The position numbers and the translations under genes are program-made. This document shows positions 41,919-43,261 of a stretch of 43,261 bases of DNA, piece by piece. How positions within the stretch are numbered: the first letter of the stretch is position 1; every line of letters starts with the position of its first letter. This DNA is from Ignavibacteriota bacterium (GTDB taxonomy: Bacteria > Bacteroidota > Ignavibacteria > UBA10030), in assembly GCA_003162695.1 (NCBI GenBank), contig PMML01000078.1:1-43261 (forward strand), given 5' to 3'. The notes beneath the pieces were generated by a model that saw only the letters and a program-made list of their open reading frames with translations, searched no databases and was not told the DNA's origin.

Positions 41919-41947
41919 TTGACAGCAATCCTCAATTACTGTATATT
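41919..41947 (+). promoter_or_regulatory. Promoter of DUF3795-lexA operon
   Basis: TTGACA (41919-41924), 17-bp spacer, TATATT (41942-41947). Confidence 0.85.
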
Positions 41948-41956
41948 ATTACAGTA
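41937..41956. promoter_or_regulatory. LexA (SOS) operator TACTGTATATTATTACAGTA
   Basis: CTGT-N8-ACAG with TA flanks, near-identical to the E. coli SOS-box consensus; overlaps the -10. Confidence 0.85.
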
Positions 41957-41968
41957 TTCATAATTACA

Positions 41969-41982
41969 GTATAAATTTATAC
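41969..41982. promoter_or_regulatory. 14-bp perfect palindrome GTATAAATTTATAC downstream of the SOS box
   Basis: GTATAAA/TTTATAC arms; embedded in ACAGTATAAATTTATACAG. Confidence 0.5.
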
Positions 41983-41994
41983 AGAGGAGGAAAA

Positions 41995-42291
41995 ATGGAA
42001 TCGCTTATTTCAGCTTGCGGCTTGGATTGCTCCGTATGCCCATGGTACCCGAATACATGCAGCGGATGTTTTTCCGTCAAAGGATCGACCTTCTGGGCCA
42101 AAGAAGCATTGCCGGGCAAAACCTGCGCGTTATTCAACTGCGCGGTTAACGAGAGAGGCTATAAAAACTGCGGCGGGTGTGCAGAATTACCGTGCAAGAA
42201 ATTCGTCGAATTGAAGGATCCCAATACATCTCAGGAAGAGCATCTGGCATCGATTCATGTAAGAGCAGCACGTCTGAAAGGAATACAATGA
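41995..42291 (+). CDS. DUF3795 cysteine-rich protein
   Basis: ISACGLDCSVCPWYPNTCSGC...CALFNCAVNERGYKNCGGCAELPCKKF; gaggagg SD. Confidence 0.85.
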   Translation: MESLISACGLDCSVCPWYPNTCSGCFSVKGSTFWAKEALPGKTCALFNCAVNERGYKNCGGCAELPCKKFVELKDPNTSQEEHLASIHVRAARLKGIQ

Positions 42292-42959
42292 AAACGGCAC
42301 AACAGACAAATCAGAAGAACGCAGTACTGACAAAAATACAGCAGAACGTTTTGAATGTCATCCGCGAATTTATGGAAAACAATTCGTATCCCCCGACTTT
42401 ATCTGAACTCGGACAGGCGCTGCATATTAACATCAATGCAGTCCGGGATCATCTGCATGCACTTGAGCGCAAACAAGTTCTTCGATGCATTCCCAATATT
42501 TCGCGCGGCATCGAACTTCTCCATGCAAAACCGGAAGGGATCCCGATCTATGGTTTTGTTCCGGCCGGTCATCCGTTTATGTCGCAGGAGAATATCGTCG
42601 ATACGTTTGAAATACGCAGATACATCTCTGCTTCGAATAATGTGTTCGGCCTGTATGTTCGGGGTGACAGCATGAAGGATGCCCAGATTGCCACAGGCGA
42701 TCTTCTTTTTGTAGATCCGGATGTTGAGGCGAGAGACGGCAGGATGGTTGTTGCGCTGGTGGAAGGAGAACCGACCGTGAAATGGCTTCAAAAGGAAGGT
42801 TCGACAATCTCACTTGTACCTGCAAACAAAAAGTACAAACCTATCGTCGTGGATAAAAACGATGAGAATTTCAAGATTGTAGGAGTCGTCGTAGGTATGA
42901 TTCGCGCGATGGACAAACTGCGAATCGACAAAATGGTGAATCTTAAAAAGGCGTCATGA
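42288..42959 (+). CDS. lexA: SOS repressor LexA
   Basis: ATGA overlap with DUF3795; wHTH YPPTLSELGQAL...SRGIELL; cleavage site VPAG; catalytic GDSMKD and TVKWL. Confidence 0.93.
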   Translation: MKTAQQTNQKNAVLTKIQQNVLNVIREFMENNSYPPTLSELGQALHININAVRDHLHALERKQVLRCIPNISRGIELLHAKPEGIPIYGFVPAGHPFMSQENIVDTFEIRRYISASNNVFGLYVRGDSMKDAQIATGDLLFVDPDVEARDGRMVVALVEGEPTVKWLQKEGSTISLVPANKKYKPIVVDKNDENFKIVGVVVGMIRAMDKLRIDKMVNLKKAS

Positions 42960-43048
42960 TATCGGTAGAGCTTTATATTGTTGAAGAAGAATGGTTGGGA
43001 GGGAAAAGGCAGGGGGGATAGTTTTTACGGAGTCTCATGATCTTCCCT

Positions 43049-43135
43049 GCAGCCGCGGGCGGTGACCGCGGAGAATTTCTGACGTCACCCGCCTGAATGA
43101 CTGAGTCATCAGTCGGGCAGGGCACCGTCGGCTGC
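43049..43135. repeat. Nested palindromic (REP/BIME-like) structure downstream of lexA
   Basis: GCAGCCG...CGGCTGC outer arms; GGTGAC/GTCACC and CTGAATGACTGAGTCATCAG inner arms; CCGCCTGAATGACTG shared with 18454-18468. Confidence 0.6.
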
Positions 43136-43261
43136 AAAAACAACGGTACATCAAAATACACTAAGTTACAATAAACCACTTGCATTTAATTTGAAAATAA
43201 TATAAGCTACCAGCAGTAAGGGAAATACAAGCGAAGCTCACGGAAGGTGGGCATCAGATTC

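Follow-up and report, generated by a model that had tools for sequence, protein, structure and literature searches.

What does a LexA repressor control when its gene is the second of an operon headed by a gene for a cysteine-rich DUF3795 protein, behind what looks like an Escherichia coli-type operator? We addressed this question for a 43,261-nucleotide contig of an uncultured Ignavibacteriota bacterium (PMML01000078.1, assembly GCA_003162695.1; the whole stretch is hereafter referred to as the window), and compared the locus with 391 sampled genomes of the class, 24 of which carry a LexA of the window type; the relatives named below are Ignavibacteriae/Bacteroidota metagenome-assembled genomes. 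LexA proteins repress their own genes and are released on DNA damage. Our comparison makes it likely that the window holds a LexA-autorepressed two-gene operon, DUF3795-lexA, which derives from the lineage of the LexA/PolB2 mutasome and in which DUF3795 is the only evident co-regulated output.

The lexA product scores 171.4 bits against TIGR00498 (cut-off 111), and its winged helix-turn-helix DNA-binding domain (PF01726, 57.9 bits) and S24 peptidase domain (PF00717, 105.7 bits) both exceed their cut-offs. Its best PDB matches are LexA structures of the E. coli type, and the cleavage site (Ala93-Gly94) and the Ser128/Lys165 dyad, recognized in the original prediction, are intact and invariant across nine aligned LexA sequences. 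Besides this canonical architecture, the window LexA shares with its E. coli counterpart a box over the -10 element and an Asn-Ala pair in the recognition helix, whereas the recognition-helix loop is one residue shorter (NINAVRDHL versus RSPNAAEEHL in E. coli) and differs at further positions. As in canonical LexA systems, a predicted operator lies in the gene's own promoter, and the DNA-binding domain matches PF01726 rather than a CI/XRE-type helix-turn-helix, unlike that of the non-canonical, CI-type S24 LexA of Bacteroidetes. A recA gene is present in the genome. The first gene of the operon, correctly assigned in the original prediction, encodes a protein that matches PF12675 over residues 5-70 (33.9 bits, cut-off 22.6) and overlaps lexA by 4 bp (ATGA). 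This protein is small and rich in cysteine like other members of its family, but differs in being placed directly under a putative LexA operator. An AlphaFold2 model built from two sequences reached a pLDDT of 36 and was set aside.

Table 1 Features of the DUF3795-lexA locus, in window coordinates
Feature	Position	Strand	Basis
-35 hexamer TTGACA	41919..41924	+	Read from sequence; recurs in aligned lexA promoters
Palindrome TACTGTATATTATTACAGTA, spanning the -10	41937-41956		Read from sequence
Predicted LexA box 1, CTGTATATTATTACAG (CTGT-N8-ACAG)	41939..41954	.	Sequence; matrix and model scores
-10 hexamer TATATT, overlapped by box 1	41942..41947	+	Sequence; same register in relatives
Predicted LexA box 2, GTATTCATAATTACAG	41954..41969	.	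15-bp register of ACAG kept in the clade
Putative LexA box 3, GTATAAATTTATACAG	41969..41984	.	Only in three DUF3795-lexA operons
Shine-Dalgarno AGGAGG of the DUF3795 gene	41985..41990	+	Read from sequence
DUF3795 gene (98 residues, 10 Cys)	41995..42291	+	PF12675; orthologues precede lexA in two other genomes
lexA (223 residues, canonical LexA)	42288..42959	+	TIGR00498, PF01726, PF00717; best PDB matches
Possible decayed start of the small gene trailing lexA in relatives (21 codons, MISVELYIVEEEWLGG...)	42956..43021	+	Position; residues YxVEEE

The promoter proved to be as originally described, TTGACA-17-TATATT at 41919-41947 with CTGT-N8-ACAG over the -10, and this 17-bp spacing recurs in the aligned lexA promoters (TTGACA-17-TATATT/TAAATT). 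The original prediction had described a single E. coli-type box; the CTGT-N8-ACAG element at lexA stands, but as read from the sequence it belongs to an array of several overlapping boxes. Two extra ACAG half-sites, overlooked at first, lie at 41966 and 41981 in an exact 15-bp register. Box 2 has an ACAG right half and an imperfect left half and shares one base with box 1; in the later boxes generally, the left halves are GTAT or GTGT in place of CTGT, and adjoining boxes overlap by one base. Across the lexA promoters of the clade with this operator type (the CTGT clade), ACAG or a variant stands 32 and 47 bases past the start of TTGACA, giving two boxes, and the three DUF3795 operons have an additional half-site at 62 (shifted by 1 bp in G024), giving three (41939-41984 in the window). 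The second half-site is degenerate in G024, G309 and G030, and the third is changed in G287 and G309. Because 15 bp corresponds to about 1.4 helical turns, neighbouring dimers, if they share the array, would lie on nearly opposite faces of the DNA. The one-base overlap and the 15-bp period set the operator apart from the boxes of the E. coli SOS system, whose LexA is also distant from this clade.

The bare CTGT-N8-ACAG pattern is weak evidence in itself, because it turns up in 13 of 100 shuffled versions of the window and is not enriched in the 3.38-Mb genome (30 occurrences, against 39 for a reversed control pattern). The genomic sites examined most closely lie within genes, for example those for a purine nucleoside phosphorylase and a peptidase, or precede the gene of a transporter or SPFH-family protein with no link to the SOS response. 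The strict form, TACTGT-N8-ACAGTA, is matched perfectly at a single genomic site, that of the window. A matrix trained only on eight lexA promoters, from genomes outside the window's family, scored this site at 61.1 bits, compared with -2.4 for the best site in the window that does not overlap the array, which argues that the box is real. In a genome-wide search with a model that includes the window sequence, the site had E = 3e-11 and the next match 0.58. That the palindrome is a chance product of AT-rich promoter sequence, or a site for a different regulator, for instance the XRE-S24 protein described below, is scarcely credible: the bare motif is not rare, but the conservation and register of the palindrome hold across genera, the operator switches along with the LexA recognition helix, and the XRE-S24 gene's own promoter carries another palindrome.

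Operator type and recognition helix change together. Recognition helices of the form N(I/L/V/T)NAVR and close variants accompany CTGT operators, QPSA(A/V)R accompanies TAGTATA, and H(V/I)SSM accompanies ACCGTATA. In a LexA tree, all CTGT-type sequences fall into one clade (99/98). This clade groups with the LexAs of TAGTATA and ACCGTATA type and is distinct from E. coli, which sits on a long branch; nothing in the tree points to a shared ancestry with the gammaproteobacterial LexA and its box. Because the CTGT clade stands apart from E. coli and the operator shifts with the helix, the E. coli-type box most likely evolved independently in this clade. Elsewhere in the sample, a LexA on a small contig (L061, G027:C255), from a genome without the window-type LexA, combines a helix resembling that of E. 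coli (SPNAVQEHL) with CTGTATAAACTTACAG in the promoter of its gene, and the LexAs L137-L142 of family f9 pair the helix HVSSM with an operator around TATACCGTATATTTATATACCATA, their genes being followed by a different gene rather than the PolB2 cassette.

The LexAs of the DUF3795-lexA trio, together with that of G309, branch inside the clade of a different family (98/93). Of the 32 genomes sampled from the window's own family, the window genome included, just 3 carry the window-type LexA (29 lack it). Together, these observations suggest horizontal transfer, by which the operon was probably acquired; repeated loss may be an alternative. A phage or viral origin was considered and dropped, as single-protein scans of viral contigs, limited to close relatives, returned no relatives of LexA or DUF3795.

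In several relatives, a small gene comes next after lexA, and then a gene for a RecA-fold protein, a small gene whose product starts MGRT, and a family B polymerase gene, the last confirmed by PF00136. When modelled, the RecA-fold protein finds its matches among RadA/Rad51/Dmc1 structures (E about 1e-10). We had considered this gene as a new ImuA-like component, and discarded the idea since it fits the known iRadA, with its RadA/Rad51 fold and adjoining MGRT-type PPB2. The cassette is that of the PolB2 mutasome operons (iRadA-PPB2-PolB2) already described with lexA, SRAP and DUF72 neighbours (Timinskas et al. 2025, PMC11791011). The relatives agree with that description, in that LexAs of the window's clade head or accompany the cassettes and SRAP and DUF72 genes are neighbours, whereas the window operon has no mutasome genes within the contig and the text available to us does not mention a leading DUF3795 gene. 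The literature accessible to us contained no paper combining a family B DNA polymerase, LexA, ImuA and the SOS response, and none of the papers naming LexA and Ignavibacteria concerned LexA operators, as far as titles and abstracts tell. The cassette also occurs as a separate operon: in genus g21 it has an array like that at lexA, and in L107 (G059) and L099 (G035) it stands under TTGACA-17-TATATT with an overlapping LexA-box array. The model finds the PolB2-cassette promoters of G217 and G282 (E = 3e-8 and 4e-8), both outside the training set, and in related genomes scores strongly only at lexA and the PolB2 cassette. The same array appears to control both lexA and the PolB2 translesion mutasome in relatives, often as one operon. 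Control of the DUF3795-lexA operon by a LexA-type operator is well supported by these comparisons, because the operator is kept at the lexA and PolB2-cassette promoters of the clade, three genomes share the gene order, and the box varies with the recognition helix.

The window ends 302 bp after lexA, and in G024 the order is DUF3795-lexA-small gene-iRadA-PolB2. The mutasome genes might likewise follow lexA in the window genome and be missing from the assembly, and a remnant-like open reading frame at 42956 is in the right position for the small gene. This reading is very unlikely. The resemblance of the remnant is not significant (tblastn E = 2.8), the 302 bp contain none of the iRadA-PPB2-PolB2 genes, and although the small gene of G024 begins about 10 bp after lexA, no intact copy is found in the 302 bp here. 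In G030, moreover, the cassette is absent after lexA although the contig continues, and the 98.7% complete window assembly has a single iRadA, located elsewhere. G024 carries iRadA a second time, on another contig and close to an S24 gene, and the single copy of G030 is also near an S24 gene, on a different contig from lexA. Near the end of the window, a G+C-rich stretch contains an inverted sequence (tgcagccg ... cggctgca, 43045-43140) without an Rfam match; an RNA element was discounted, as nothing in the window matched Rfam.

The single iRadA of the window genome belongs to a PolB2 cassette on another contig (L052, G000:C59), from which the gene of an XRE-S24 repressor runs divergently. The S24 protein matches HTH_3 and Phage_CI_repr, and two boxes of the ACGACA-N4-TGTCGT type, ACGACAAAAATGTCGT (C59:12632) and ATGACATAATTGTCGT (C59:12728), stand between its gene and the cassette, which makes it a probable non-canonical LexA controlling the mutasome. 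It is of the same general type as the CI-type S24 LexA of Bacteroidetes, for which the motif CTAA-N5-TTAG has been mentioned (Sanchez-Osuna et al. 2021, PMC8565304), but its boxes differ from that motif. No box was found upstream of recA or dinB in the window genome, and the boxes at recA and translesion polymerase genes that typify an E. coli-type SOS regulon are lacking there.

In most bacteria LexA governs several genes, and the window LexA might run a wider SOS regulon through boxes that are degenerate or have another spacing; a site with several mismatches would escape detection, as the model is blind to weak or differently built LexA sites. We nevertheless consider this unlikely: recA and dinB have no boxes, the next best model matches in the genome reach only E about 0.6, and the strong scores in related genomes are confined to lexA and the PolB2 cassette. 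The genome-wide box search proposed in the original prediction returned the strict form once, at lexA, and no wider regulon. Because the site at lexA is the only credible one, the PolB2 genes lie elsewhere, and recA and dinB lack a box, the window operon is probably an orphan, self-contained LexA operon. With the cassette separated from it, DUF3795 is left as probably the sole co-regulated product. A regulon of one operon, with DUF3795 as its first gene, is a further difference from the E. coli SOS system.

Whether DUF3795 matters to that operon is the point on which an alternative survives best. DUF3795 could be a passenger that landed between the operator and lexA, repressed by LexA through its position only and without a role in damage, with LexA autoregulation intact. 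This is a serious possibility, if in our judgement not the probable one. Only one small LexA clade has this arrangement, in 3 of the 24 lexA-bearing genomes, so that it is rare but not unique to the window genome, and a 50% identical DUF3795 relative occurs at an unrelated place, between groES and groEL (L146, G146:C50:12162-12440). Conversely, close orthologues are limited to three of the genomes sampled from the class, each time directly upstream of lexA; the two other copies are 80-81% identical, compared with 70-78% for lexA. DUF3795 was not found elsewhere in the window's family, and the third box is restricted to these operons. The literature accessible to us mentions DUF3795 once, in a work whose title concerns another gene. 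We favour DUF3795 as a useful output, a preference rather than a result; it is most likely a small accessory protein that binds metal and is induced by damage, and this is the weakest step of our explanation.

In the mechanism that we propose, LexA dimers would occupy the array of CTGT-N8-ACAG-type boxes, which reaches from the -10 as far as the Shine-Dalgarno region, and would thereby block RNA polymerase. By analogy with the LexA family, DNA damage would lead to RecA-stimulated self-cleavage at Ala93-Gly94 and lift the block, and DUF3795 and fresh LexA would then be made together, coupled through the ATGA overlap. The operon would stem from the LexA/PolB2-mutasome lineage, probably by horizontal transfer, and would here have parted from the polymerase cassette, which lies beside the XRE-S24 gene. 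A bolder reading, which we put forward only tentatively, is that it is a horizontally spread minimal SOS unit, with a convergent E. coli-type operator of overlapping boxes, a regulon limited to its own operon and DUF3795 as a dedicated damage-induced effector or LexA modulator, next to an XRE-S24 repressor that runs the host PolB2 mutasome.

The ACCGTATA, TAGTATA and CTGT clades provide a natural series of LexA operator change in step with the recognition helix, in which an E. coli-type box was apparently reached independently. From relative to relative, the PolB2 mutasome module is found next to S24 repressors of two unrelated types, and DUF3795, a family of unknown function, is placed in what would be a damage-response context.
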